This document shows positions 9,040 through 55,597 of a stretch of 64,000 bases of DNA, one piece after another. Source of the DNA: Thermaerobacter sp. FW80 (lineage in GTDB: Bacteria > Bacillota > Sulfobacillia > Thermaerobacterales > Thermaerobacteraceae). The translations under genes were made by a program, and so were the position numbers. The DNA is taken from contig NZ_CP037895.1 of assembly GCF_004634385.1 (NCBI RefSeq), forward strand, positions 719,245 through 783,244. The letters run 5' to 3'. The notes beneath the pieces are model-generated. The model worked only from the letters and a program-made list of their open reading frames with translations. It searched no databases and was not told where the DNA came from. The stretch's first letter is position 1, and every line of letters begins with the position of its first letter.

Positions 9040-9981
9040 TCAGGACGCCGAGGCCAGACGCGGGATCTCCTCCACGGGGAACTCCAGCTCGATCAGCTCG
9101 CCGCCGCGGAGGATGGTCAATTTGGCGCGCTCGCCCGGACGCCGGTAGGCGAGCACCTTGCGGATGCTGCCGGCGTGGACCACGGGCTGGTCGTCGGCGC
9201 GCACCACCATGTCGAAGGGCTTGATGCCCGCACGCTTGCCCGGTCCGTTGTCCGCCACGTGCCCGACCACCAGGCCGCGATCGACCGGCAAGGCGAACAG
9301 CTGCGCCAGCGCGGGATCGACGACGTCCGGCTGGCCGGAGAAGCCCAGCCACGGATGGGTGGCCCGTCCGAACTCGATGATCTGGTTGACCACCCGCCGC
9401 ACCACGTCGCCCTGCACCGCCAGGTTCAGCCCGTGGGACCAGGGGATGCCGTTGATGCCGGCCACGCTCCCATCCAGCAACACCAGCGGTCCGCCCGTGT
9501 TGCCCGGGTGCATCGGCGCCTGGGTGACGATCAGGCCGTCCACCGGGATCCGGTCCGGACGGTACAGCGTCATGTCCACCGTGCTGATGATGCCCAGGGT
9601 GGCGTTGATCTGCAGGTTGAGGGGATATCCCACCGCCACCACGAACTGCCCCACCTGCAGGTCCGCCGTCGGCCGCCAGGCCGGCAGGGGTCCGGGGAAG
9701 CGCTCGGCGAGGCGCAGGACGGCGATGAAGTAGACGGGATCGCTGCCCACCACGTCGGCGTCGACCTTGGTCCCGCCGGGGAGCGTGACCACCACCTCGG
9801 CCGCGTCGTCCACCGTCTGGGCATTGCAGATGACGTGCCAGTGGTCGAAGACCAGGCCGGTGCCGAAGGCCGTGGTCTGCCGCTTGCGGTCGGTCCCCGC
9901 CACGTGGACCAGGAAGGGCCGGACCTGCTCCAGCACGCGGACGATGGTGGTATCCCATGCCAGGGGCTGCATCATGTCCAT
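9040..9981 (-). CDS. HtrA-like protein with PDZ domain, catalytic triad lost
   Basis: 313 residues. The fold is that of the S1C (HtrA/Deg) family: a trypsin-like domain (about 25-205) followed by a PDZ domain (about 218-305, with HPWLGFSG, then GPGKRAGIKPFDMVV). All three catalytic positions are changed. The His of the usual TNxHVV is Gln55 (CNAQTV). The Asp of TDLAVL is Phe85 (VYFIAVL). The Ser of GNSGGPL is Thr162 (GNTGGPL). There is no signal peptide or membrane segment, so it is probably cytosolic. It is likely a non-proteolytic binding protein. It converges with the Fur-family gene, 10 bp apart, with tRNA-Arg upstream. Confidence 0.85.
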   Translation of the reverse strand: MDMMQPLAWDTTIVRVLEQVRPFLVHVAGTDRKRQTTAFGTGLVFDHWHVICNAQTVDDAAEVVVTLPGGTKVDADVVGSDPVYFIAVLRLAERFPGPLPAWRPTADLQVGQFVVAVGYPLNLQINATLGIISTVDMTLYRPDRIPVDGLIVTQAPMHPGNTGGPLVLLDGSVAGINGIPWSHGLNLAVQGDVVRRVVNQIIEFGRATHPWLGFSGQPDVVDPALAQLFALPVDRGLVVGHVADNGPGKRAGIKPFDMVVRADDQPVVHAGSIRKVLAYRRPGERAKLTILRGGELIELEFPVEEIPRLASAS

Positions 9982-10085
9982 CGCCTCGACCCCGATCGGG
10001 CTCCCAGGCCTCCGATGGCCTCCGACGGCCGCCAATGAACCAAGGGGCGGCGCCCGGCCTCTCGTACCGGTCACCGCCCCGGATG

Positions 10086-10160
10086 TGCGCCCGGCAGGAA
10101 TCGAACCTGCGCAAGACGTGGCTCCGGAGGCCACCGCTCTATCCGCTGAGCTACGGGCGC
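10086..10160 (-). tRNA. tRNA-Arg (anticodon CCG)
   Basis: A 75-nt cloverleaf: acceptor stem GCGCCCG with CGGGCGC, D arm TAGCTCAGCGGATAGAGC, anticodon stem GTGGC/GCCAC around loop CTCCGGA (anticodon CCG), and T arm with GGTTCGATTCC. CCA is not encoded. It decodes CGG, a common arginine codon in this GC-rich DNA. Confidence 0.96.
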
Positions 10161-10192
10161 ATGCGCGCCGCCGCGCGCTCGTCGCACCTGTG

Positions 10193-10221
10193 ATTATACT
10201 GCGCGCGGCGCGCCCTGCCAA
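10193..10221 (-). promoter_or_regulatory. SigA-type promoter of tRNA-Arg
   Basis: On the minus strand, TTGGCA (10216-10221), a 17-bp spacer and a perfect TATAAT (10193-10198), about 33 bp before the mature tRNA 5' end. Confidence 0.9.
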
Positions 10222-10989: not shown

Positions 10990-11442
10990 ATGACGGGGAC
11001 GAACGCAGCCCGCTCAGCCCATGGCGCGGCCGACCGCCAGGGAGCGGGGCGGCCCGCCGCCGCCGAGGGCGCGGATCGCGGCGGCGCCGACTCCCACTCG
11101 TCGCACCCCCACGACACCCGAGAGGACGTCCTCTTGCGTCGCTGGGGCGAACCGCGGTTCCACGGTTGGCTCAGCCGTCGCCCCACCCGCTTCTTGGACA
11201 AGGTGAAGCAGTTCCTCTGGGGGTTGCTCTTCTTCGAGTGGTACCACGAGCTGCGCCACGTCCGCTCCCGCTACAACGACGTGATGAACCTGATCCTCTT
11301 TGGCGAGATGCTGGGCATCCCGTTGATGAACTCCTCCATCGGCCTGCGCCTGCTCCCCTACGCGCTGCCCGACCTGCACGCCTGGAAGCACCGCCAGTTG
11401 GAGGAGCTCGTGGTCGAGGAGCATGCGCCGCACATCCACTGA
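10990..11442 (+). CDS. Small MLGIP-family protein, copy A
   Basis: 150 residues from ATG at 10990 with CAGGAG upstream. The first ~50 residues are a polar, low-complexity lead. The conserved part (about 67-140) shares a clear pattern with the gene at 15796-16098: FLxK, then LWG or LYG, then GEMLGIP (GDMLGIP in the other), LRLLPYALP (LRILPYAVP) and WKxR. I do not recognise a named family. It is followed 11 bp later by a membrane protein gene, and both face the ArsA-like cluster. It ends with HAPHIH, which could bind a metal; that is a guess. Confidence 0.75.
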   Translation: MTGTNAARSAHGAADRQGAGRPAAAEGADRGGADSHSSHPHDTREDVLLRRWGEPRFHGWLSRRPTRFLDKVKQFLWGLLFFEWYHELRHVRSRYNDVMNLILFGEMLGIPLMNSSIGLRLLPYALPDLHAWKHRQLEELVVEEHAPHIH

Positions 11443-11453
11443 GGTGACGGACG

Positions 11454-12032
11454 GTGAGCGATCCGCTGCTCGACCGCATTGCCTTCGCCGTCGCGGTGTT
11501 CCTGGTGTTCTGGCTGATCGGCGGCCGGCAGTGGAACCGGCGGCGCGCCGTCCAGCTGGCGCGGGCGGCGCGGGACGCCATGCAGCTCCTGGGCGACGAC
11601 GTCCGCGTGCAGCCCTTGGGCGGCGGCACGGGCGGCTTCCTGATGGAGGTCGGGCGGCCCGGCGCCGGCATCCGTTCCGCCCAGCTGCTCTGCCTCTTGG
11701 AACCCCGCGACTTTCCGCTGGCCTGGGCGTGGACCCGGTGGCGGGGCCGGCGGGACCAGTTCATCCTCAAGGTCGAGGCGGCCCAGCCCCTGCGCCCCGC
11801 CCGCCTCCAGGGACAGGGGCGGCCCGTGGACGGGTTTGGCCTCCGGCGCCTGGTGCTGGCGGCCACCCAGGCGGCGAGCCCCCAGGTCCAGGTGAGCTTC
11901 GGCGTCGCCCCGGGCGAGGAGGGTGACATCGCGCGGGCGGTCGCGCTGGCCGCGGGGCTGGCGAGGGGAGAGCTCCAGCTGGCCGGCCGCGAGGGCGTGC
12001 CCCCTGGCGGCCGGGGCGGCACGGAATCCTGA
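11454..12032 (+). CDS. Uncharacterised one-pass membrane protein
   Basis: 192 residues from GTG at 11454. The GAGGTGA ribosome site overlaps the stop of the preceding gene, so translation is probably coupled. One hydrophobic segment at about residues 8-24 (IAFAVAVFLVFWLIG) is followed by basic residues, giving an N-out/C-in anchor with a soluble, mostly cytoplasmic domain. The soluble part has beta-rich stretches (VRVQPLGGGTGGFLMEVGRP, FILKVEAAQPLRPARL). I recognise no family. Its position beside the MLGIP protein and opposite the ArsA-like genes suggests a shared role. Confidence 0.65.
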   Translation: MSDPLLDRIAFAVAVFLVFWLIGGRQWNRRRAVQLARAARDAMQLLGDDVRVQPLGGGTGGFLMEVGRPGAGIRSAQLLCLLEPRDFPLAWAWTRWRGRRDQFILKVEAAQPLRPARLQGQGRPVDGFGLRRLVLAATQAASPQVQVSFGVAPGEEGDIARAVALAAGLARGELQLAGREGVPPGGRGGTES

Positions 12033-12137
12033 CCCGTGCGGCGGTGGCCGGCGCCAGGCGGCGGTGGCCGGCGCCCGGGCCGCCGTCGGCGCGCGGGCCC
12101 GCCGGGCCTCGGCCACCGCCGCGCGCCGCGCGCGGGC

Positions 12138-12183
12138 GCGGGCCCGCACGCCGCCCACGGGGGTGGGCGGCGTGCGGGCCCGC
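12138..12183. terminator. Bidirectional hairpin between convergent genes
   Basis: A perfect 21-bp inverted repeat with a 4-nt loop lies between two convergent genes. It has no T tract on either side. It probably ends transcription from both directions. Two ~20-bp direct repeats with the core GCGGTGGCCGGCGCC precede it at about 12040-12080. Confidence 0.7.
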
Positions 12184-12197
12184 GCGGACACCTCGGC

Positions 12198-12695
12198 TCA
12201 CGTGCCGCCGTCACGGGCAAGGCATGCCGCCAGCCATCGGTCGAGGACGCCGTAGTCGTCGTCCACCCGCACGCAGCGACCGCCCACCACCACCGCCATC
12301 TCGTCGCTGCGCAGGCGGTGCCGGACCGCCAGCCAGGCACCCCGCAGCGACGGCAGCGGCACCGTCACCGGCTCCACCTGGTCGCCGAAGCGGGCCGCCA
12401 GATGCCGCACCAGCTGCACCAGCCGGCGCTGGCGGTCGCGCTCGGGCGCGGGGTACTCCCGCTCCTGATCCGCCGGCCCCTCGAGCCCGCAGGCCAAGGC
12501 CCATGGCATGGCTCGCGGGCACAGCTTGAAGTACAGGGGGAAGAGCCCGACGATCTCGACCCGCAGCGGTCTCCCCCTGCGCCCTGTCCGCCGCCGGCGT
12601 CCGGTGCGCCCCGCGCCGTGCCGCCCGCGCCGGGCGACATCGGGTGCGACCACGCCCCTCGCCCCCTCCCCGCAAGGATCGCCGGCCGAACCCAC
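12198..12695 (-). CDS. Possible thioredoxin-fold (ArsD-like) small protein
   Basis: The conserved-looking part is about 120 residues and starts at VEIVGLFPLYF. The predicted order (strand, cysteine loop CPRAMPWALAC, helix, strand EPVTVPL, helix, strand MAVVVGGRCV, C-terminal helix) suggests a thioredoxin-like fold, with an end resembling ArsD-type metallochaperones. The ArsD Cys-Cys pair is absent. The start is uncertain: GTG at 12695, GTG at 12653, or a CTG near 12566 after AGGGGGAG. The upstream Arg-rich stretch looks non-coding. It is the last gene of the ArsA-like cluster. The fold is my inference from pattern only. Confidence 0.55.
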   Translation of the reverse strand: MGSAGDPCGEGARGVVAPDVARRGRHGAGRTGRRRRTGRRGRPLRVEIVGLFPLYFKLCPRAMPWALACGLEGPADQEREYPAPERDRQRRLVQLVRHLAARFGDQVEPVTVPLPSLRGAWLAVRHRLRSDEMAVVVGGRCVRVDDDYGVLDRWLAACLARDGGT

Positions 12696-12731
12696 CCCAC
12701 CGGCCCCAGGGCCTGGACGGTGCCCTGGCGT

Positions 12732-13475
12732 TCAGTGGCACCGCCAGCCGCGCACGGCGGCCTCCCAGGCCGCCTCCACCTCCGACTCGCCGCTCCCCGG
12801 CGCCGCCTCCAGCCGCACCGCGATGCGCCGCTTGGTCTCCGGGCAATCGACCACCAGCGCCCGCGCGGGGTGCCATCGTCCAGGGAAGCCCCGTCGCACC
12901 GCCCCCCGCGCCCACCAGCCGCGGTGACCGGCCAGTTCCAGCGTCCCATCGGTCGCGGAACGCGAGAGGAGACGCGCCGCCGGGGACGCCACCGGCCCTT
13001 CGCCAGCGCGATCGACGGCCGCTCGCGGGCGGACGTCCAGGAACAGCTCGACCCGCGCCGGCAGCCGACGCCTGCCGCCTCCCTCCCCGCGTCGCGCGAC
13101 CCGGGGGGACGCCGCCGTCGCGGTCCGCCCCTCGGCCCCCCCGTCCGATCTCCCGTCCCCCGTCCGCTGGACTGGGCGGCCGGCACCGGCGACCTCGGTT
13201 CCCTGTGCCGCCCCGCCCCGGGAATCCCCGGGCCCGGACCCGGTCCCGCCGGCGGTCGCCGCGAGCCACCAGTGACCCCGGGCGGCGGTGGCCCAACTGA
13301 TGCCGTCGCGCACCGCCCAGCGGTCCACCTCGGGCGGAAAGGCGCCGTCCCCCAGCCGCCAGCCGGCCGGTACGCCCAGCAGCAGGAGGTTGCACGTGCC
13401 GAAGACGACGCTCCGCACCGCCAGCAGGTAGGGGCAGACCGCGGACGTCCCCTCCCCCGGGCCCGGGCCGTTCAC
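12732..13475 (-). CDS. Uncharacterised protein coupled to ArsA-like ATPase 1
   Basis: 247 residues. The GTG start at 13475 overlaps the TGA stop of the ATPase gene (GTGA), which shows tight translational coupling. The first ~70 residues look folded (CPYLLAVRSVVFGTCNLLLLGVP, then ISWATAARGHWWLAA). A Gly/Ala/Arg-rich linker follows, then a second region with RVELFLDVRP, LELAGHRGWWARGAV and ALVVDCPETKRRIAVRLEA. No known domain is recognised. The layout suggests a partner or client factor of the ATPase. Confidence 0.65.
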   Translation of the reverse strand: MNGPGPGEGTSAVCPYLLAVRSVVFGTCNLLLLGVPAGWRLGDGAFPPEVDRWAVRDGISWATAARGHWWLAATAGGTGSGPGDSRGGAAQGTEVAGAGRPVQRTGDGRSDGGAEGRTATAASPRVARRGEGGGRRRLPARVELFLDVRPRAAVDRAGEGPVASPAARLLSRSATDGTLELAGHRGWWARGAVRRGFPGRWHPARALVVDCPETKRRIAVRLEAAPGSGESEVEAAWEAAVRGWRCH

Positions 13476-14503
13476 CCCGTCACCTGGGCCAGCGCCCAGT
13501 GCTGGTCGGGGTCGAACAGGTCGTCCACCGCCTGCTTCAGTGCCTCCAGCCCGTGGACCTCGCTCTTGTAGAGGGGCAGGTAGGCGCGAACCAGGTCGCC
13601 CAGCTCCCGCTGGATCTGCTCCAGGTACCCCGCCTGCTCCTCGTACTTGTTGCGCAGGTACTCGTCCTCGCTGGCCCGCTCCACCTCCTCGCCGCGGATG
13701 ACGCCGTTGACCAGCACCCCGCCCACGGGGATGTCGTAGGCCCGCACCATCTTGATGAACCGCGTGACCACGGAGATCGGCAGGGCCAGGGGCAAGGTGA
13801 CGAAGAAGAAGGCGGTCAACCGGGGGTCGACCAGTAGCTTCTTGACCGCCTTGAACCGCTCGTCCATGGCGATCAGGTCCGCCAGCATCGGATCCTTCTT
13901 GACTTCCTCCATCACCTTGTCCTTGCGGAAGCTGAGCTGCACCCGCAGGGAGAGCGCCTCCTTGCGCGACTCGATCATGCGCTGCAGCCACAGCCCGTAG
14001 ATCTTGGACAGGCCGATCAGCCGCACCGCGTTGGCCACCGCCGCCGTGTCGAAGACGACCATGTCGTACTCCTGGCCCTCGCGCAGCATGATGTCGACCA
14101 TCTTGTCGAACATGGCCGACTCCTCGAAGGCGGGGTTGGTCACCGCGATGTCGATGAAGGGCTTCGCGTCCACCGGGATGTCCGCGTACTTCAGGAATTC
14201 TCGCACCCGCTGGGCGATGTTCTCGCGGTAACGGGCCACCACGTCGGAGGCGTCGACCTCCACGGCGTGGAGGTTGGGCACCCCCTGCACCGGCCGCACC
14301 TGGCCACCCGAGAGGTCCTGCCCGAACACCGACGTCAACGAGTGGACGGGGTTCAGGCTGGCCAGCAGCGTGCGCTTGCCTTGTTCGGCGAAGTGGTACG
14401 CCAGCACGGCGGCGCAGATCGTCTTGCCCACGCCGCCCTTGCCCCCGGTGAAGACGAACTTCAGATCGGGATGCCTCTCCAGGAAGGCGCTGATGTGCTC
14501 CAC
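13472..14503 (-). CDS. ArsA/Get3-like ATPase 1 (atypical switch II)
   Basis: 343 residues from GTG at 14503, set by an AAGGGGGG ribosome site 7 nt upstream. It belongs to the SIMIBI class of P-loop ATPases. The deviant Walker A is GGKGGVGKT (about 20-28) with the signature lysine at about 22. Where ArsA/Get3 proteins have DTAPTGH, this protein has DTAAVANAVRLI, so the TGH part is gone. No ArsA metal-site cysteine triad is seen, and the length matches a single-domain Get3-like subunit, not the doubled ArsA. It probably pairs with ATPase 2 upstream. Its role is unknown. Confidence 0.85.
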   Translation of the reverse strand: MEHISAFLERHPDLKFVFTGGKGGVGKTICAAVLAYHFAEQGKRTLLASLNPVHSLTSVFGQDLSGGQVRPVQGVPNLHAVEVDASDVVARYRENIAQRVREFLKYADIPVDAKPFIDIAVTNPAFEESAMFDKMVDIMLREGQEYDMVVFDTAAVANAVRLIGLSKIYGLWLQRMIESRKEALSLRVQLSFRKDKVMEEVKKDPMLADLIAMDERFKAVKKLLVDPRLTAFFFVTLPLALPISVVTRFIKMVRAYDIPVGGVLVNGVIRGEEVERASEDEYLRNKYEEQAGYLEQIQRELGDLVRAYLPLYKSEVHGLEALKQAVDDLFDPDQHWALAQVTG

Positions 14504-14696
14504 CCTCGTTCCCCCCTTGCGGACGAACCGGCCGCGGCCGCACCGGCCGGCGAGGCCCGCCGGGCCCATCGCACCGGGCATCGGCGTTCCCCGGCGGCAC
14601 GGCTGCGGCCGGTGCCGGGTCCGGTCGACAGCGGTGCTGGAGCCACCCCTGCGTCGGGCGCCCCACGGTCCGGCGGGCCGACGCGTCCCGGGCACC
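14504..14696. other. Spacer between the two ArsA-like genes
   Basis: 193 bp without a supported gene. It carries an exact copy of the dispersed word GGACGAACCGGC at 14521-14532, just upstream of the ATPase 1 ribosome site. The frame stays open through it, so an N-terminal extension of ATPase 1 cannot be excluded, but the composition is repetitive. Confidence 0.5.
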
Positions 14697-15713
14697 TCAC
14701 GCCTCCAGGGCGATCTCGCAACGCATCAGGTACCGGGACGCCTGCTCGATCATCGCCAGGCCCTTGGGCTCGCGGGTGAACATCGGCACCACCGCCTGGA
14801 CCCGGTCGCCGAACTTGCGGGCGATCTCCGCCAGGTGCTCCTGCTGCATCAGGACGCGGTTGCGCAGGTACTCGGAGGTGCCCGGCCGGTCCAGGAGCTC
14901 GCGCGGATACACCTGGTTGACCACCAGCCCCGACATCTCCATCCCCAGGGCGTTGAACATCGCCAGGGCCCGCTCCGTGTCCAGGATCGCCATCTTCTCG
15001 GGGATCAGCACCATGAAGAAGGCCGTGCGCCGTCGATCGGTGATCAGATCGGTGAAGGCCTTGATCTTGTTGCGGATGTCGATGAGCTCCTGCATCACCG
15101 CGTCTTCGTGGCCCTTCTCGCCCTTGAGCGTGGCGGCGATGGCGTCGTACTCGGCCACCTTGGAGCGAGCCTCGGTGATCTTCTCCACCCACTTGGAGAG
15201 GATGTCGGCCATGGCCACCATGCGCACGCCGTGGCCGAAGGGCGGCATGTCGAAGATGTAGATGTCGTACTGGTGCGCGGCCACGAGCTCGGCCATGGCG
15301 TCGTAGGTGGCCGACTCGTACATCGCCGGCTCGGCGGAGGTGGAGTCGATGTACTCCTCGATCTCCTTGGGCACGGCGTCGAGGCCGTACATGTCCTTGA
15401 TCTTCTGCTTCACCGACGCCTGGTACTCGGCCACCCGCCGGTCGGCGTCGATCTCCACGACGAACAGGTTGGGAGCCACCTCGATCTCGCCCAGGCCGTA
15501 GAAGTTGCGCTCGAAGATGTCGCTGAGGGACGCCTGGGGATCGGTGCTGAAGAGCAGCGTCCGCTTCTTCTTCACCTGGGACATGTACCAGGCCAGGGAC
15601 GAGCTGGACGTCGTCTTGCCCAGTCCGCCCTTGCCCGCGAAGATGACGACCTCCACGTCGGGGTGCGCCTCGAAGTACGCCTCGAGACCCCGGGGCCGCA
15701 CCAGGGTGGGCAT
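14697..15713 (-). CDS. ArsA/Get3-like ATPase 2 (canonical motifs)
   Basis: 338 residues. The deviant Walker A is AGKGGLGKTT (27-36). Switch I follows the FSTDPQASLSDIF pattern. Switch II is DMPPFGHGVRMV, retaining the GH of the family DTAPTGH. No arsenite-binding Cys triad is visible. The C-terminal half has LVVNQVYPREL, close to the family VVNxVLP motif. It is 193 bp upstream of ATPase 1 and 82 bp downstream of MLGIP protein B. I infer a nucleotide-driven targeting or metallochaperone-like role, with the substrate unknown. Confidence 0.88.
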   Translation of the reverse strand: MPTLVRPRGLEAYFEAHPDVEVVIFAGKGGLGKTTSSSSLAWYMSQVKKKRTLLFSTDPQASLSDIFERNFYGLGEIEVAPNLFVVEIDADRRVAEYQASVKQKIKDMYGLDAVPKEIEEYIDSTSAEPAMYESATYDAMAELVAAHQYDIYIFDMPPFGHGVRMVAMADILSKWVEKITEARSKVAEYDAIAATLKGEKGHEDAVMQELIDIRNKIKAFTDLITDRRRTAFFMVLIPEKMAILDTERALAMFNALGMEMSGLVVNQVYPRELLDRPGTSEYLRNRVLMQQEHLAEIARKFGDRVQAVVPMFTREPKGLAMIEQASRYLMRCEIALEA

Positions 15714-15795
15714 GACCGCTTCCTCCCTCCCGCGTCCCGTCCGCCTTTCGCGACGCCTGCCGCGACGCCCGCGCGGCGATGGCCGCCGGCGCCCC

Positions 15796-16098
15796 TCAGT
15801 AGATGGCGTCGGTGAAGTCGCGCTCGCGGAAGACCCGCTGTTTCCACGACTCGATGTTGGGCACCGCGTAGGGCAGGATCCGCAGGCTGTAGTAGGGCGG
15901 CAGCACGGGGATGCCCAACATGTCGCCCAGGGTGATGAACATGAACAGATGTTCCAGGTGCATGCGCGTGCGCAACGCGGCCGTCACGTTGCCGTGGCTG
16001 GCCATCCCGTAGAGCACGCCGCGCAGCTTGGTGAGGAAGCCGCCCTTCTGCTGCGGACCGCCCGTGTCGGCGCCCGCTGGCCCCTTGCGTCCGAACAT
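15796..16098 (-). CDS. Small MLGIP-family protein, copy B
   Basis: 100 residues from ATG at 16098 (GGAGGGGAAG upstream); an in-frame start at 16131 would add 11 residues. After a polar lead the conserved core reads GGFLTKLRGVLYG, then LFMFITLGDMLGIP, YSLRILPYAVP and WKQRVFRERDF. It is a paralogue of the protein at 10990-11442. It lies between cstA and ATPase 2 on the same strand. No signal peptide. The MLGIP part is moderately hydrophobic and may be the piece the ATPases bind. That is inference. Confidence 0.8.
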   Translation of the reverse strand: MFGRKGPAGADTGGPQQKGGFLTKLRGVLYGMASHGNVTAALRTRMHLEHLFMFITLGDMLGIPVLPPYYSLRILPYAVPNIESWKQRVFRERDFTDAIY

Positions 16099-16200
16099 GC
16101 CTCGCTTCCCCTCCCTCTGCGACCGTCGCAAGCCCCGCCGGGCTGGGCCGGGGTGCCGGCCGCTCGAACGCCGCCAGCCCCCCGGCCCCCCGCGCGCGGG

Positions 16201-17973
16201 TCAGTCGCCCGGGGCCGCCTGCGGCTGGGCCAGCATGCCGGCCTTGGCGCGGCTGTAGGCCTGCAGGGTCAGGACCGCCATGCGCAGGCCCAGGACGAAC
16301 AGCGCCACGCCGATCAGCACCGACGCCCAGTCGATCAGGTTGGCCACGGTGGGCGCCATCGTCTTCAGCGGATCCTGGGTCAGCGTCTTGGCCGGCCCGC
16401 CCAGGGCCGCCTGCAGGAACCGGATCGTCTGCACGGCGATGGCCGCCAGGGTGGTGACGATCATGAACAGCGCCGGGAGCAGCGTGTACCGCGTCGGTGC
16501 CTTCACCCGCGCCAGGTGGATGGTGATCAGCATCAGGGCGAGTCCCGCCAGCAGCTGGTTCGACCCGCCGAAGAACAGCCAGATGTTGTTCCACGAGCCG
16601 CTGACCGCCATGATCCAGGGCAGCAGCAGCCCCACGAAGGTCGACACGTGCTTCTGGGCCAGGATGCCCTCGCCGAACACCTCCACCGACACCAGTCGCC
16701 AGAAGCGGGTGACCAGCGCCTGGACGGTGATGGCGTAGATCACCAGCACCGTCCCGTAGAAGACCTGGATGGCCGCGTCGGACATGAACAGACCGAGGAT
16801 CGGCTCGGTCAGCAGGGTGGCGCCGTAGACCCACGCGCCCACGCTGGCGCCGCCCAGTTCGGCGATCCGCTCGGGGCTCAGCACCATGTACGAGGCCAGG
16901 GACACCAGCGCTAGCAGGCCCTCTCCCAGCATGGCCCCGGCGCCCACCGGATGGGCGTCGGGCTCGACGTCCAGCTGCTTGGCCGTGCTGGACGAGCTGA
17001 CCAGGCTGTGCCAGCCGGAGATGGCGCCGCAGGCGATGGCGGTGAACAGCACGGGCCACATCGGGTTACCCCCGGCGGCGAAGCTGCCCGCCGGACCCCA
17101 GAAGCCCTTCCAGCCGGGCTGCGCCAGGGTCACGCCGGTGATGGGCGTGATCAGCGCGCCGAGCAGGATCACCAGCACGGCGAACATCGCCGGGAAGAAG
17201 GAGACGTAGTTGAAGGGCTGGATGAAGGTCGGCAGCGGCAGGATGGACGCGACGTACAGGATGGCGCAGCACAGCGCCGCCCACACCCAGACGTTGAAGT
17301 TCAGGGCGCCCTGGGCGCCCAGGTTCAGCCGCACGGCGCGGCCGACCTCCGTGGACCCCAGCCAGAAGGACAGGATCATCAGGACGAAGGCGAGGAGGGT
17401 CACGGCGCCCACGTTCATGCGTCGCTTGTACAGCAGCTGGCCGCAGATCACGCCGGTCAGGATGATGCCGACCGTCGCCACGAAGGAGCCCGCGAAGGTG
17501 TTCCAGAAGACGGCGATCAGCTGGATGAAGGTCGCCGAGATGATCAGCAGGTAGAACAGGATGAAGCCCAGCAGCGTGCTGCGCCCCGCGGCGCCGGTGA
17601 ACTCGTAGGTGATGGGGCCGAAGGACCGTCCCTGGTTGCGCACCGACAGCATGATGGACCCGTAGTCCTGGAGCCAGCCGATGAAGAAGTTGCCGAAGAT
17701 GATCCACAGGAGCGCCGGGACCCAGCCGAACTGCAACGCCACGAAGGGCCCCAGGATCGGGCCCAGCGCCGCCACGCTCTTGTACTGGTAGCCCCACAGC
17801 ACGTAGCGGCTGACGGGGAAGTACTCCACCCCGTCGGTGTACATGTGGGCGGGGGTGGTGCGGTTGGCGTCGGGTTGCCAGACCGTGCGGTCGTACCACC
17901 GCCCGTAGACGAAGTAGGCGATGCCGTAGGCGATCAAAGCCAGCACCACGAACATCGCCGGCGAATTCAGCAT
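16201..17973 (-). CDS. cstA: Carbon starvation protein A-type transporter
   Basis: 590 residues with about 15 hydrophobic segments, matching the short CstA type. The N-terminus LALIAYGIAYFVYGRWYDR and the motif GYQYKSVAALGPILGPFVAL are typical, as is GAISGWHSLVSSSSTAKQL. Known relatives are proton-coupled or sodium-coupled importers of peptides or pyruvate. It is the first gene on the strand that leads to MLGIP protein B and the ArsA-like genes, with a 102-bp spacer, so cotranscription is possible. Confidence 0.95.
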   Translation of the reverse strand: MLNSPAMFVVLALIAYGIAYFVYGRWYDRTVWQPDANRTTPAHMYTDGVEYFPVSRYVLWGYQYKSVAALGPILGPFVALQFGWVPALLWIIFGNFFIGWLQDYGSIMLSVRNQGRSFGPITYEFTGAAGRSTLLGFILFYLLIISATFIQLIAVFWNTFAGSFVATVGIILTGVICGQLLYKRRMNVGAVTLLAFVLMILSFWLGSTEVGRAVRLNLGAQGALNFNVWVWAALCCAILYVASILPLPTFIQPFNYVSFFPAMFAVLVILLGALITPITGVTLAQPGWKGFWGPAGSFAAGGNPMWPVLFTAIACGAISGWHSLVSSSSTAKQLDVEPDAHPVGAGAMLGEGLLALVSLASYMVLSPERIAELGGASVGAWVYGATLLTEPILGLFMSDAAIQVFYGTVLVIYAITVQALVTRFWRLVSVEVFGEGILAQKHVSTFVGLLLPWIMAVSGSWNNIWLFFGGSNQLLAGLALMLITIHLARVKAPTRYTLLPALFMIVTTLAAIAVQTIRFLQAALGGPAKTLTQDPLKTMAPTVANLIDWASVLIGVALFVLGLRMAVLTLQAYSRAKAGMLAQPQAAPGD

Positions 17974-41706: not shown

Positions 41707-42357
41707 TCAGGCCAACCGCGCCTTGCGCGGCACGTTGGTCTTGCGGATGGCCACCAGGCCACCCCGGGGCCCGGGGACGGCGCCCTTCACCAGCAGCAGG
41801 TTGCGCTCCGGGTCGACCCGCACCACCTGCAGGCCCCGCACCGTCACCCGCTGGTGGCCGGCGCGGCCCGCCATCTTGCGGCCCTTGAAGACCCGCGCGG
41901 GGTCGGTGGAGGGCCCCAGCGAGCCGGGCCCCCGGTGGTACTTGGAGCCGTGACTCATCGGTCCCCGGCCGAAGCCGTGCCGGGCGATGGGCCCCAGGAA
42001 CCCCTTGCCCTTGGAGGTGCCCGTCACGTCCACGTACTCGCCCGCCTTGAACAGGTCCACGGTGACCTGCTGGCCCACCTCCGGCAGCGGCTCGTCGTCG
42101 TCGACCCGGAACTCGCGCAGCACCCGCACCGGTTCGACCCCCGCCTTCCGGAAGTGGCCGGCCATCGGCTTGTTGACCTTGCGCGGCTTGATCTCGCCGA
42201 AGCCCAGCTGCACGGCGCGGTAGCCGTCCCGCTCCTTGGTGCGGGTCTGCACCACCACGCACGGCCCGGCTTGGATGACGGTGACGGGCACCGCCCGGCC
42301 CTCGTCGTCGAAGATCTGCGTCATGCCCAGCTTGCGACCCAACAGGCCGACGCCCAT
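41707..42357 (-). CDS. rplC: Ribosomal protein L3
   Basis: 216 residues from ATG at 42357, since GGAGGTG lies 8 nt upstream and overlaps the earlier in-frame [28 protein letters not shown] is the standard start. [26 protein letters not shown] is the conserved loop near the peptidyl transferase centre. Confidence 0.98.
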
Positions 42358-42415
42358 GGGTTGCACCTCCGTTCGCCGTGCTGTCCCCGACCCGCGGCGC
42401 GGCGCCCGCGACGGC

Positions 42416-42724
42416 TCAGAGCTTGATCTCGATGTCCACGCCGGCGGGCAGGTCGACCCGCCGCAGGGCGTCGATGGTCTTGGGCGTCGGGTCGATGATG
42501 TCGATCAGGCGCTTGTGGGTGCGCATCTCGAACTGCTCGCGGTGGTCCTTCTCCCCGTTGGGCGCGGTCAGCACGGTGAACACGCTGCGCTCCGTGGGCA
42601 GCGGCACGGGGCCGGAGATCTTCGCGCCCGTGCGCCGCGCCGTCTCCACGATCTTCTCGGCCGATTGGTCGAGCACGCTGTGGTCGAACGCCCGCAGCTT
42701 GATCCGGATCTTCTGCCGGGCCAT
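42416..42724 (-). CDS. rpsJ: Ribosomal protein S10
   Basis: 102 residues. [23 protein letters not shown], then [15 protein letters not shown] and [12 protein letters not shown] are standard. It doubles as NusE in antitermination in other bacteria. First gene of the S10 operon, 36 bp after tuf1. Confidence 0.98.
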
Positions 42725-42760
42725 GGTTCATCCCCCCTTGCGTCGCCGGACCAACCGGAC

Positions 42761-43948
<1,188 letters not shown>

Positions 43949-44005
43949 CGCCGGAACGCCTCCCTCGTCGTCGGTTCGTCCGTCACCGCGCCGGCGTGCG
44001 TCGCC

Positions 44006-46102
44006 TCAGCGCGCGGCCCGTGCCCGGTCGCTCCGGGCCTCGATGATCTGATCGGCGATGTTCTTCGGCACCTGCTCGTAGTGGCTGAACTGCATCGTGT
44101 AGGTGCCGCGCCCCTGGGTCTTGGACCGCAGGTCCGTGGCGTAGCCGAACATCTCGGCCAGCGGCACCAGCGCCCGGATCACCTGCAGGCCGCCGGCCTC
44201 GGGCTCCATCCCCTCCACCCGGCCCCGCCGGGCGTTGATGTCGCCGATGACGTCGCCCATGTACGCCTCCGGGACGACGACCTCGACCTTCATGATGGGC
44301 TCCAGCAGCACCGGGCCCGCCTGCAGGGCGGCGTTGCGGAAGCCCATGGAACCGGCGATCTTGAAGGCCATCTCCGAGGAGTCCACCTCGTGGTAGGAGC
44401 CGTCCACCAGCGACACCCGCACATCGAGCACGGGGTAGCCGGCCAGGATGCCGTTCTGCATGGCCTCCCGGACGCCGGCCTCCACCGCCGGGATGTACTC
44501 CTTGGGCACCACGCCGCCGACGATCTTGTTGACGAACTCGAATCCGCCGCCCGGCTCCAGGGGCTCGATCTCCAGGACCACGTGGCCGTACTGGCCGCGG
44601 CCGCCCGTCTGTCGGATGTACTTGCCCTCGGCCCGGGCCGGCCGCGTGATGGTCTCCTTGTACGCCACCTGCGGCTTGCCCACGTTGGCCGCGACCTTGA
44701 ACTCCCGCATGAGCCGGTCGACGATGATCTCCAGGTGCAGCTCGCCCATGCCGGAGATGATGGTCTGGCCCGTCTCCTCGTCGGTGTGGACCCGGAAGGT
44801 CGGGTCCTCCTCCGCCAGCTTGTTGAGGGACTCGCCCAGCTTGTCCTGGTCGGCCTGGGTCTTGGGCTCGATGGCCACCGAGATCACCGGCTCCGGGAAC
44901 TCCATGGACTCCAGCACGATGGGCGCGTTCGGGTCGCACAGCGTCTCGCCGGTGATGGTGTCCTTGAGGCCGACCGCCGCCGCGATGTCGCCGGTCCAGA
45001 CCTCGTCCACCTCTTCGCGGTAGTTGGCGTGCATCCGCACGATGCGGCCGATCCGCTCCTGCCGCCCCTTGTTGCTGTTGTAGACGTAGCTGCCGGCCTT
45101 GAGGTGGCCGGAGTAGACGCGGAAGAAGGCCAGCTTGCCGACGTACGGGTCCGTCATGATCTTGAAGACCAGGGCCGCGAAGGGCTCATCGTCGCTGACC
45201 TTGCGCTCGACCTCCTGGCCGGTCTTCGGGTCGATCCCCCGCACGGCGGCGATGTCCAGGGGCGACGGCAGGTAGTCCACCACCGCATCCAGCAGCGGCT
45301 GCACGCCCTTGTTGCGGTAGGCGGTGCCGCACAGCACCGGCACCAGCTGGAGGTTGATGGTGCCCTGGCGCAGGGCGGCGCGGATCTCCTGGGCGGAGAT
45401 GGGCTCACCCTCCAGGTACTTGACCATCAACCCCTCGTCGATCTCGGCCACGGCCTCCAGCAGCTTCTCCCGGTACTCCTCGGCCTGTTCCCGCATGTCG
45501 GCGGGGATCTCCTCCGCCTCGTAGCGGGTGCCGAGATCGTCCCGGTAGAAGATGGCCTTCATCTCCACCAGGTCGACGATGCCGCGAAAGCTGTCCTCGA
45601 CCCCGATGGGCAGCTGGATGGCCACGGGGTTGGCGCCCAGGCGCTCCCGCATCTGGTCCAGGACCCGGAAGAAGTTGGCGCCCACCACGTCCATCTTGTT
45701 GACGAAGGCGATGCGGGGCACCCGGTACTTGTTGGCCTGGCGCCACACCGTCTCGGACTGCGGCTCGACGCCGCCGCGGGCCGCGAAGATGGCGATCACA
45801 CCATCCAGGACGCGCAGCGACCGCTCCACCTCCACGGTGAAGTCCACGTGCCCGGGCGTATCGATGATGTTGATCCGATGGTCCCGCCAGAAGCAGGTGG
45901 TGGCGGCGCTGGTGATGGTGATGCCGCGCTCCTGCTCCTGCACCATCCAGTCCATGGTGGCGGCGCCTTCGTGGACCTCGCCCATGCGGTGCACGCGACC
46001 GGTGTAGTACAGGATGCGCTCGGTGGTGGTCGTCTTGCCCGCGTCGATGTGGGCGGCGATCCCGATGTTGCGCGTCCGCTCGAGGGGATACTCCCGGGGC
46101 AT
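44006..46102 (-). CDS. fusA: Elongation factor G
   Basis: 698 residues from ATG at 46102 (GGAAGGAGGG upstream). GTPase that drives translocation. [21 protein letters not shown] holds G1; DTPGHVDF G3; NKMD G4. Domain IV has the tip loop, with [14 protein letters not shown] earlier. C-terminal [12 protein letters not shown] is standard. Lies between rpsG and tuf1. Confidence 0.98.
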
Positions 46103-46163
46103 GTCGTCCCTCCTTCCTCCGCCGCGCCCGGCCGTCCGGTCCGCCCCGGACGGCCGCCCCTGC

Positions 46164-46634
46164 TCACCAGCGGTAGTGGGCGAAGGCGCGGTTGGCTTCC
46201 GCCATGCGGTGCACCTCTTCCTTGCGCCGCACGGCACCGCCCGTGTTGTTGGCGGCGTCGATCAGCTCGTTGGCCAGGCGCTCCACCATTGTCCGCTCGT
46301 GGCGCTGGCGCGCGTACTCCACAATCCAGCGCAGCGCCAGGGACAGCCGGCGCTCGGGCCGCACCTCCAGCGGCACCTGGTACGTGGCGCCGCCCACCCG
46401 CCGCGGCCGCACCTCCAGCACCGGCATCGTGTTGCGCACCGCCTGCTCGAACACCTCCAGCGGGTCGCGGCCCGTCTTCTCCTTGACCCGCTCGAAGGCC
46501 TGGTAGACGATGCGCTGCGCCAGGCTCTTCTTGCCGTCCCACATCACCTTGTTGATCAGTCGGGCCACCCGCTCGCTGCCGTACACGGGATCCGGATCGA
46601 TCGGACGCCGTGGCACCCTGCCTCGCCTGGGCAT
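46164..46634 (-). CDS. rpsG: Ribosomal protein S7
   Basis: 156 residues. [44 protein letters not shown] is typical, as is [16 protein letters not shown]. It organises the 30S head. In other bacteria it represses the str operon. The 208-bp gap to rpsL upstream is larger than usual and carries a hairpin. Confidence 0.98.
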
Positions 46635-46710
46635 GCCCCTCCTCCTTTCGTGCCACCCCTCGTGCCACCCGCGGCCCGCCGTGACATGCGGCGACGCCCG
46701 CTCCGGGCGT

Positions 46711-46744
46711 AAAAAATTCCTCGCCGGGTTCGGGGACGAACCCG
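46711..46744 (-). terminator. Hairpin plus T-tract between rpsL and rpsG
   Basis: On the minus strand, an 8-bp stem CGGGTTCG/CGAACCCG with a 4-nt loop (46725-46744) is followed after 8 nt by TTTTTT (46711-46716) and a second hairpin (ACGCCCG/CGGGCGT). The stem includes a variant of the dispersed word. It may be a partial terminator that lowers transcription into rpsG-fusA-tuf. Confidence 0.6.
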
Positions 46745-46842
46745 CCCCGCGCTGGCAGGGCCGCCGGCGGCGAGGATGCGCCCGGAAGCGAGCGCCGGCC
46801 CGGGCCGCCCGCTTCCCGCGAGCCGTGGTTCAGCCGAGAGCG

Positions 46843-47217
46843 TCAGGACTTGGGCCGCTTGGCCCCGTACTTGGACCGCCCCTGGCGGCGCTTCTCCACC
46901 CCGGCCGCATCCAGCGCGCCGCGGATGATCTGATAGCGCACGCCCGGCAGGTCCTTGACGCGACCGCCGTGGACCAGCACCACCGAGTGCTCCTGGAGGT
47001 TGTGGCCCTCGCCAGGGATGTAGGCCGTCACCTCGATGCCGTTGGTCAGGCGCACTCGGGCGATCTTCCGCAAGGCGGAGTTGGGCTTCTTGGGCGTCGT
47101 CGTGCGCACCTGCAGGCACACGCCGCGCTTCTGCGGGTTCCCGCGCAGCGCCGGCGCGCCCGTCCGGCGGACCACCCGCTGTCGTCCCTTGCGCACCAGC
47201 TGGTTGATGGTCGGCAC
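46843..47217 (-). CDS. rpsL: Ribosomal protein S12
   Basis: 124 residues from GTG at 47217 with GAAGGAGGTGA upstream. [11 protein letters not shown], then [19 protein letters not shown] (the Lys of the streptomycin-sensitive type) and [12 protein letters not shown] are wild-type. Decoding-centre protein, first of the classic str operon. Confidence 0.98.
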
Positions 47218-47264
47218 GCCCGTCACCTCCTTCCCATCGGCGATCCCGCGGCCGCAGGCCGCCC

Positions 47265-47516
47265 TCACTCCTCAAGGATGGCGGCGGAGGCGGCCCCGAC
47301 CTTGATCTTGCACGCACTGCCCAGTTCGCGCATGGTGTCGACGTACTCCAGTTCGACGCCGCGCGCCTGGCACGCCTGCACCAAGTCGCGCACCACGTGG
47401 GGCTCGGCGTCCCGGGCCACGTACACCCGCACCGCCTCGCCCCGCAGGACCGCCTTCAGGGTCTGCTTGGTGCCGACGGTGCGGCGCCGGGCCGCCCGCA
47501 GGCGATCCAGGGACAT
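47265..47516 (-). CDS. L7Ae/L30e-family ribosome-associated protein (YbxF-like)
   Basis: 83 residues from ATG at 47516 with GGAGGG upstream. The fold pattern is that of L7Ae: [66 protein letters not shown]. Small proteins of this type lie between rpoC and rpsL in most Firmicutes and bind kink-turn RNA in some. It follows a strong promoter. Confidence 0.92.
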
Positions 47517-47587
47517 CCGCGCTGGCCCTCCTTCGTGCGACCGGCCGCCCGCCGGGCGCGATTCATCAGGCCAAGACACACTCGATA

Positions 47588-47616
47588 AGTGTAGCACCCG
47601 CCCTGGGGCAGGTCAA
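47588..47616 (-). promoter_or_regulatory. SigA-type promoter of the L7Ae-rpsL-rpsG-fusA-tuf group
   Basis: On the minus strand, TTGACC (47611-47616), a 17-bp spacer and TACACT (47588-47593), between rpoC and the L7Ae-like gene. Confidence 0.85.
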
Positions 47617-47664
47617 CGCGGCCCGGCCCCGGCCGGCATCGCCGCCGGGGCAGGGCCGCGCCGG

Positions 47665-51528
<3,864 letters not shown>

Positions 51529-51531
51529 GCC

Positions 51532-55242
<3,711 letters not shown>

Positions 55243-55558
55243 GCCTTGGTTCACACCCCTTCGCCACAGGATCCGCCACCACGCCTCAGAGCCTGCCTCC
55301 GCCTCGGAGCGCCCCCTTGGGCGGACCCGCGCCCCCGCCGGGGGCGGTCCGCCCGCCGGGCCGTCTCGACGGCGGCCCTACGGATCGGGCTGGCCATCCC
55401 AGAGGGAGGGAACCCGGAGAGAGGATCGCCGGAAGAATGGCGTCGCGTTGCAGGAACCATGCATGCCGGCGCCGAACCTCCTGAGCGAAGGCGCCTCTGC
55501 GAGGACGAGGACTCCGGGCGAGCGCCCGGGGCCCGTGGATGTTGGACGCATGGGCACC

Positions 55559-55597
55559 TGCCACTGGCGGCAACCAACAACAGTGGCAAGGTATAAT
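55559..55597 (+). promoter_or_regulatory. 8-bp dyad next to a TATAAT box
   Basis: A perfect dyad TGCCACTG-N14-CAGTGGCA (55559-55588) lies directly before TATAAT (55592-55597) on the plus strand. No good -35 is present at 16-18 bp. The dyad looks like an operator overlapping a promoter that would transcribe antisense to the rpoB leader. Strand and role are uncertain. Confidence 0.45.

Follow-up and report, generated by a model that had tools for sequence, protein, structure and literature searches.

What do a pair of ArsA/Get3-type ATPases, two small proteins with a common MLGIP motif and a transporter of the CstA family do side by side in the genome of Thermaerobacter sp. FW80 (Bacillota)? 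Together with three further genes they occupy positions 10,990 to 17,973 of a stretch of 64,000 nucleotides (contig NZ_CP037895.1, positions 719,245 to 783,244), analysed as a whole and called the window below. A preliminary description of this DNA had presented the eight genes as one functional unit and as a candidate new system, possibly a targeting or metallochaperone machine, and all eight reading frames were found on the strands that it gave. The answer that we favour, and to which we assign about an even chance, is an ATP-driven or ATP-gated CstA transporter run through the ATPase pair and MLGIP.

A profile of 16 MLGIP proteins, searched in one genome per species, led to 346 related places. 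The best 80 of these, 23 loci from the window's own class and the window itself made up a set of 104 loci spanning at least seven phyla. Clustering of their reading frames placed MLGIP in all 104 loci, ATPase 2 in 100, ATPase 1 in 94 and CstA in 94, followed by the one-pass membrane protein (32), the thioredoxin-like protein (32), the unknown protein with a Cys-His end (16) and a TPR membrane protein (14). Beyond these members of the block, a generic ABC-type ATPase was present in 17 loci and every other cluster in seven at most. The core order CstA > (MLGIP-A) > MLGIP-B > ATPase 2 > ATPase 1 is nearly constant, and several of the gaps correspond to genes lost at contig ends. This gene order returns in phylum after phylum, which is more than chance would give: the eight genes are one conserved, real unit that unites both MLGIP paralogues with CstA and the two ATPases, as had been proposed. 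The scattering of homologues that might have appeared in such a co-occurrence check was not found. Beyond Bacillota, the block occurs in Chloroflexota, Desulfobacterota, Actinomycetota, Spirochaetota, Armatimonadota and Myxococcota; no plasmid-borne relatives were found. Within the window's phylum, MLGIP is encoded by 18 of 299 sampled genomes, and the paired-ATPase CstA system is widespread, not common. One Desulfobacterota branch (L112 and L185, G517) carries CstA and the thioredoxin-like gene on the strand opposite to MLGIP-ATPase 2-ATPase 1; the unit therefore survives rearrangement.

Because the 104 loci had been selected by MLGIP, a reverse search was made from the CstA side in a sample of 148 genomes centred on one of the Desulfobacteraceae, with CstA loci picked irrespective of MLGIP. 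CstA is present in 72 of these 148 Desulfobacterota-centred genomes and MLGIP in 20 of the 72; the two genes adjoin each other in 18 of the 20 and lie on separate contigs in the remaining two. Among 42 distinct CstA loci inspected in these genomes, an adjacent ArsA-type ATPase accompanies all nine that have MLGIP and none of the 33 that lack it (a Fisher test would give approximately 2e-9, for loci that are not independent).

The core of this unit is not categorically new, having been predicted computationally in 2010 (PMC2963123). Castillo & Saier described 26 cstA operons that encode an ArsA homologue; 24 encode a small protein, CstX (approximately 90 amino acids, a single transmembrane segment, TMS), and five, archaeal, encode CstY (approximately 210 amino acids, also single-TMS). 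In Symbiobacterium thermophilum and Pyrobaculum arsenaticum they saw two ATPase genes side by side, and in two archaea a duplicate CstX; they proposed that the ArsA homologues energise CstA, with CstX as the linker (PMC2963123). We found no experimental test of this energising proposal in the open-access literature searched. The window's cluster resembles these operons in its cstA, in its small protein (MLGIP-B, 100 amino acids) and in its single-domain ArsA homologues of about 330 amino acids (343 and 338), and MLGIP fits CstX, matched by size and place and not by direct sequence comparison. The claim of a new candidate system thus has to yield to operons already published with adjacent ATPase pairs. 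What sets the present loci apart is a division of labour in the pair, with one subunit catalytically degenerate, the presence of two CstX paralogues (A/B), the additional thioredoxin-fold, Cys-His and TPR proteins, and a reported phylum range that is widened here (Chloroflexota to Myxococcota).

Each of the two ATPases contains one PF02374 domain and exceeds the 135-bit cut-off of the GET3/arsA family TIGR00345 (ATPase 1, 207 bits; ATPase 2, 224 bits). Neither has a conserved cysteine column, and consequently neither the ArsA triad nor the zinc CxxC of Get3 is present; the earlier assignment to single-domain Get3/ArsA proteins without the triad was correct. They share with Get3/TRC40 and ArsA the fold family and the P-loop with its signature lysine, and ATPase 2 shares the switch motifs as well. 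In contrast to Get3/TRC40 they are two separate genes, one of them degenerate, and in contrast to the fused double domain of ArsA they are single domains that do not reach its 650-bit equivalog cut-off. Placement in the ArsA_ATPase Pfam family could recommend an arsenic or antimonite resistance operon, yet we regard this explanation as barely credible. CstA stands in place of ArsB or Acr3, the cysteine triad and the second domain are missing, and no arsenic gene recurs among the neighbours of the 104 loci, which were named from translations and not all Pfam-scanned. The cst operons surveyed in 2010 were likewise without ars genes (PMC2963123).

The two ATPases differ at the catalytic site. In ATPase 1 the P-loop is intact, signature lysine included (94 loci), the position of the first switch I aspartate is occupied by asparagine in 94 of 94 loci (SxNP), Ser, Asn, Gly or Ala stands at the second aspartate position in 94 of 94, and switch II reads AN instead of GH in 93 of 93. 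ATPase 2 keeps both aspartates and GH in all sequences that cover them (99-100 loci; SxDPQASLSD, GH invariant), the equivalent of the catalytic Asp57 being D in 100/100, and the catalytic aspartate is also retained in 14/14 ATPases of one-ATPase relatives. Alignment to the archaeal Get3 structures 3zq6 and 3ug6 puts the asparagine of ATPase 1 at the Asp of S-T-D-P, which, from our own count of the yeast sequence, we take to be D57 of yeast Get3. In the yeast protein D57 is the catalytic residue, and the D57N change yields an ATP-trapped protein (PMC12506534).

As ATPase 1 lacks the catalytic aspartate that ATPase 2 and the single-ATPase relatives possess, the two proteins, which we infer to dimerize, probably constitute an asymmetric heterodimer. 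The simplest reading would be an obligate heterodimer with one half hydrolysing ATP and the other half holding it. Castillo & Saier had remarked that in single-domain proteins the Asp of the SXD motif 'can be substituted only by N' (PMC2963123); their remark assigned the substitution neither to one member of a pair nor to catalysis, and both assignments are made here. Relative to the literature searched, what we would call new is the fixed pseudo-ATPase half, together with the ultraconserved linker.

This putative linker, MLGIP-B, is the most conserved component of the block. Its mean identity reaches 80% (82 loci), whereas ATPase 2 has 66%, ATPase 1 has 64% and CstA has 50%; MLGIP-A has a mean identity of 46% in the 46 loci that carry it. 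Such conservation would be expected of a small hub protein held by several partners. The two paralogues are 33% identical to each other, with a common core MLGIP...LPYA.P...WK. No Pfam match was obtained for MLGIP-A or MLGIP-B, and no relatives of MLGIP were found in the PDB, by profile or by fold. An AlphaFold2 model of MLGIP-B predicts helices at residues 19-61, 69-78 and 83-99 (predicted local distance difference test, pLDDT, 69.5; predicted template modelling score, pTM, 0.36).

Near the C-terminus MLGIP has a single hydrophobic stretch (maximal 19-residue hydropathy 1.4-1.6), and it is here that the main rival explanation has to be weighed, namely a Get3-like targeting machine in which the ATPase pair would shield MLGIP, the one-pass protein or CstA and deliver it to the membrane. 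Such a machine would suit the clear Get3 homology of the ATPases, the occurrence of a one-pass protein in 32 loci, the hydrophobic stretch itself and the single-TMS label of CstX (PMC2963123). However, the stretch lies under 1.6, the usual threshold; unlike the segment of the one-pass protein (2.17), it is interrupted by prolines and a largely conserved acidic residue (GD/GE), and the tail behind it is charged. The segment of the one-pass protein is N-terminal and the protein is absent from most loci. CstA is polytopic, and many of its relatives have no ATPase gene next to them. Because CstA is the constant partner and MLGIP does not look like a typical tail-anchored protein, the targeting or metallochaperone machine suggested earlier is less likely than a transporter-coupled ATPase, and we consider targeting unlikely.

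MLGIP also has relatives under another name. All 58 aligned MLGIP proteins match the NCBIfam family NF041419 ('cory-CC-star'), the proteins of the window with 33.8 bits (MLGIP-A) and 32 bits (MLGIP-B) for a cut-off of 80. Unlike members of this family, for which the name and the members examined suggest a terminal Cys-Cys as criterion, they lack a terminal CC and end in HIH and AIY. Relatives of MLGIP-A end HIH, HID or HLHGV, with a His-rich N-terminus in close relatives, and those of MLGIP-B end TDAIY or TDALA, with neither Cys nor His. Selenocysteine was considered for MLGIP and rejected: where a TGA was reported inside a match, it was either the normal stop codon that follows TDALA or an artefact, the match having overrun the end. 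A C-terminal Cys-Cys is found in six distant relatives (L141, L142, L143, L145, L147 and L148), and the protein of L145, encoded between CstA and one ArsA-type ATPase, scores 123.9 bits. Since relatives end in Cys-Cys and that of L145 exceeds the NF041419 cut-off, MLGIP-A and MLGIP-B are, to judge from sequence, divergent members of a cory-CC-star superfamily.

The CstA gene of the window is the sole one of its genome (G000). CstAs of the paired-ATPase type form a single clade with support 100/100, which includes records of Bacillota, Chloroflexota, Thermodesulfobacteriota, Actinomycetota, Spirochaetota, Myxococcota and Armatimonadota. Each of the two ATPases likewise forms a single clade (100/99), and these two clades are sister to each other before the single-ATPase relatives join; some branches of this tree are long and its deeper joins are unsure. 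Pairwise distances correlate between ATPase 1 and ATPase 2 (Mantel r 0.97) and between the ATPases and CstA (0.83-0.84). Remoter relatives of MLGIP, from Bacillota and Desulfobacterota, adjoin a single ArsA-type ATPase and usually CstA too; the paired-ATPase block is thus a branch within a wider group of systems that combine CstA, a small protein and an ATPase. A split in the CstA Pfam match (approximately 40-50 profile positions missing) was considered as a docking signature and abandoned, being also present in CstAs without MLGIP.

A CstA-family transporter with a tiny partner is also known from Escherichia coli, where CstA imports pyruvate and the small protein YbdD is essential (PMC5847655). 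Unlike the window's cluster, the E. coli system has no ATPases. No member of the YbdD family (PF04328) was found in the window's genome. Three other genomes (G042, G022 and G057; loci L138, L139 and L140) have, in addition to the paired-ATPase system and at a separate locus, a second CstA with an adjacent YbdD; two CstA systems therefore coexist. The YbdD of L138 ends in GMRCC, a Cys-Cys as in cory-CC-star, a likeness that is suggestive only. Exclusion of YbdD as a sign of replacement was rejected: YbdD is found in 0/50 block genomes, but also in 0/72 CstA-bearing genomes of the Desulfobacterota-centred sample, and the pattern is not specific.

In the mechanism that we propose, CstA would carry, at its cytoplasmic face, an obligate heterodimer of ATPase 2 and ATPase 1, both of which would bind ATP. 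The complete catalytic site of ATPase 2 would take the signature lysine from ATPase 1, which would itself hold ATP without hydrolysing it and serve as the regulatory half. MLGIP-B would dock this dimer to CstA as a constant linker and relay its opening and closing, with MLGIP-A as a second, less constrained linker. The cycle might drive transport uphill, in the way that ArsA powers ArsB, or gate CstA according to energy state. The substrate would probably be pyruvate or small peptides, by analogy with E. coli CstA. CstA is known as a secondary carrier, and we find doubtful, if worth keeping in mind, the bolder version in which it would be a primary ATP-driven pump, with an obligate heterodimer containing a natural Get3 D57N pseudo-ATPase half as its motor and the ultraconserved 100-residue linker as its transmission. 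The broader proposal of a CstA transporter worked by the ATPases gains support from the constancy of the block, from the tie between MLGIP and an adjacent ATPase in the CstA loci, from the clades and correlated distances, from the contrast at the D57 position and from the dependence of E. coli CstA on its small partner YbdD (PMC5847655). The survey of 26 operons by Castillo & Saier led to the same energising proposal (PMC2963123).

Several observations weigh against it. The 33 loci of CstA relatives without any adjacent ATPase allow the ATPase to regulate or assemble the transporter instead of energising it, and MLGIP-ATPase pairs exist without a nearby CstA (L141-L143, L147 and L129). ATPase 1 might hydrolyse ATP slowly. 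The confidence of the MLGIP-B monomer model is modest, and the correlation of distances between genes of the same operon owes part of its strength to common species history.

In four loci of Bacillota (L141, L143, L147 and also L142) a cory-CC-star gene stands with a single ArsA-type ATPase gene. As the fetched regions contain no CstA, they are exceptions to the published rule that CstX never occurs without CstA. Directly after the two genes, L142 has a gene resembling ArsR/SmtB-type metal-sensing repressors (L142:3243-3602; ELCVCD motif, recognized by eye).

The accessory members raise a second rival explanation, redox or metal maturation, according to which the thioredoxin-fold protein, the Cys-His protein and the His-rich MLGIP-A would serve to load or mend a cofactor; in this scheme the ATPases would be metallochaperones and CstA the client. 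The thioredoxin fold, earlier no more than a guess, is supported by three modelling and profile results: the best PDB matches of the family profile are thioredoxins (E=0.002), the AlphaFold2 model has the expected thioredoxin topology (pLDDT 83, pTM 0.74), and the best Foldseek matches of the model are again thioredoxins (1v98, probability 0.97; E=0.015, a match of modest strength). Of 32 relatives, 26 have a CxxC, which would suit maturation, but it has been lost in the window's clade, and the window's protein, without its second Cys, has no CxxC. The unknown protein has invariant C201, C236, H237 and H174 (numbered after the first row of alignment A6). These residues, the terminal HIH of MLGIP-A and the CC of the cory-CC-star relatives speak for the same explanation. 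Against it, the thioredoxin-like and Cys-His members occur in just 32 and 16 of the 104 loci, MLGIP-B as the most constant linker has no Cys or His at its end, and the ATPases are without a conserved cysteine. We judge maturation to be quite improbable.

A part for the thioredoxin-like, Cys-His and one-pass proteins in CstA transport is conjectural. The one-pass protein (190-215 amino acids, N-terminal transmembrane segment) may correspond to CstY (PMC2963123), which it resembles in size and topology. In 14 loci, mostly of Chloroflexota (L070, L071, L072, L084, L088, L091, L097, L108 and others), a membrane-anchored TPR protein of about 205 amino acids is encoded downstream of ATPase 1 (alignment A7).

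That ArsA/Get3-type ATPases drive transporters besides ArsB was proposed in 2010, and the conserved asymmetry now offers a sharp handle on this idea, with distinct predictions for a single-residue change in each ATPase. If true, the proposal would explain a very conserved small protein left without function by annotation in many uncultured Chloroflexota, Desulfobacterota and Bacillota. It would also show how a single transporter family can be coupled in different ways, to YbdD, to cory-CC-star with one ATPase or to MLGIP with two ATPases.

Table 1. Genes and other features of the CstA-MLGIP-ATPase locus (positions in the window)
Feature	Position	Strand	Evidence
CstA-family transporter, 590 aa (amino acids)	16201-17973	minus	PF02554, E=1.2e-96
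MLGIP-B (CstX-B), small all-helical putative linker, 100 aa	15796-16098	minus	33% identity to MLGIP-A; NF041419 homology
ATPase 2, ArsA/Get3-type, catalytic residues intact, 338 aa	14697-15713	minus	PF02374, E=6e-67
ATPase 1, ArsA/Get3-type, P-loop intact, switch I/II degenerate, 343 aa	13472-14503	minus	PF02374, E=3.5e-57
Unknown protein, Cys-His C-terminal end	12732-13475	minus	no Pfam match
Thioredoxin-fold protein, reading frame	12198-12695	minus	AlphaFold2 model; profile and fold matches to thioredoxins
Perfect 23-bp GC-rich inverted repeat, arms 12136-12158/12163-12185, candidate bidirectional terminator	12136-12185		between converging gene sets
One-pass membrane protein (TM1)	11454-12032	plus	19-residue hydropathy 2.17; no Pfam family
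MLGIP-A (CstX-A), second putative linker paralogue, C-terminal HAPHIH	10990-11442	plus	NF041419, 33.8 bits, below cut-off

Some details of the layout (Table 1) complete the picture. ATPase 1 starts with GTG at 14503, with AAGGGGGG upstream of the start, and its coupling to the unknown gene, noticed earlier, consists of a 4-bp overlap (GTGA, 13475-13472). The true start of the thioredoxin-like protein is probably nearer 12605. The shared terminator of the preliminary description is a perfect inverted repeat that separates the converging ends; it has no T run and for this reason is not listed by the intrinsic-terminator scan. An Rfam scan of the window and of five loci, made for an upstream riboswitch as a clue to the substrate, returned tRNAs only.

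Beyond MLGIP-A, an HtrA-like trypsin/PDZ protein is encoded at 9040-10221 (minus strand), the upstream part of its reading frame crossing a tRNA-Arg at 10085-10160 (minus). This gene adjoins the block within the genus and family; none was seen in more distant loci. Elsewhere in the window, an uninterrupted reading frame of 3028 codons runs from 46510 to 55596 (plus strand), preceded by one of 1416 codons (42236-46486).

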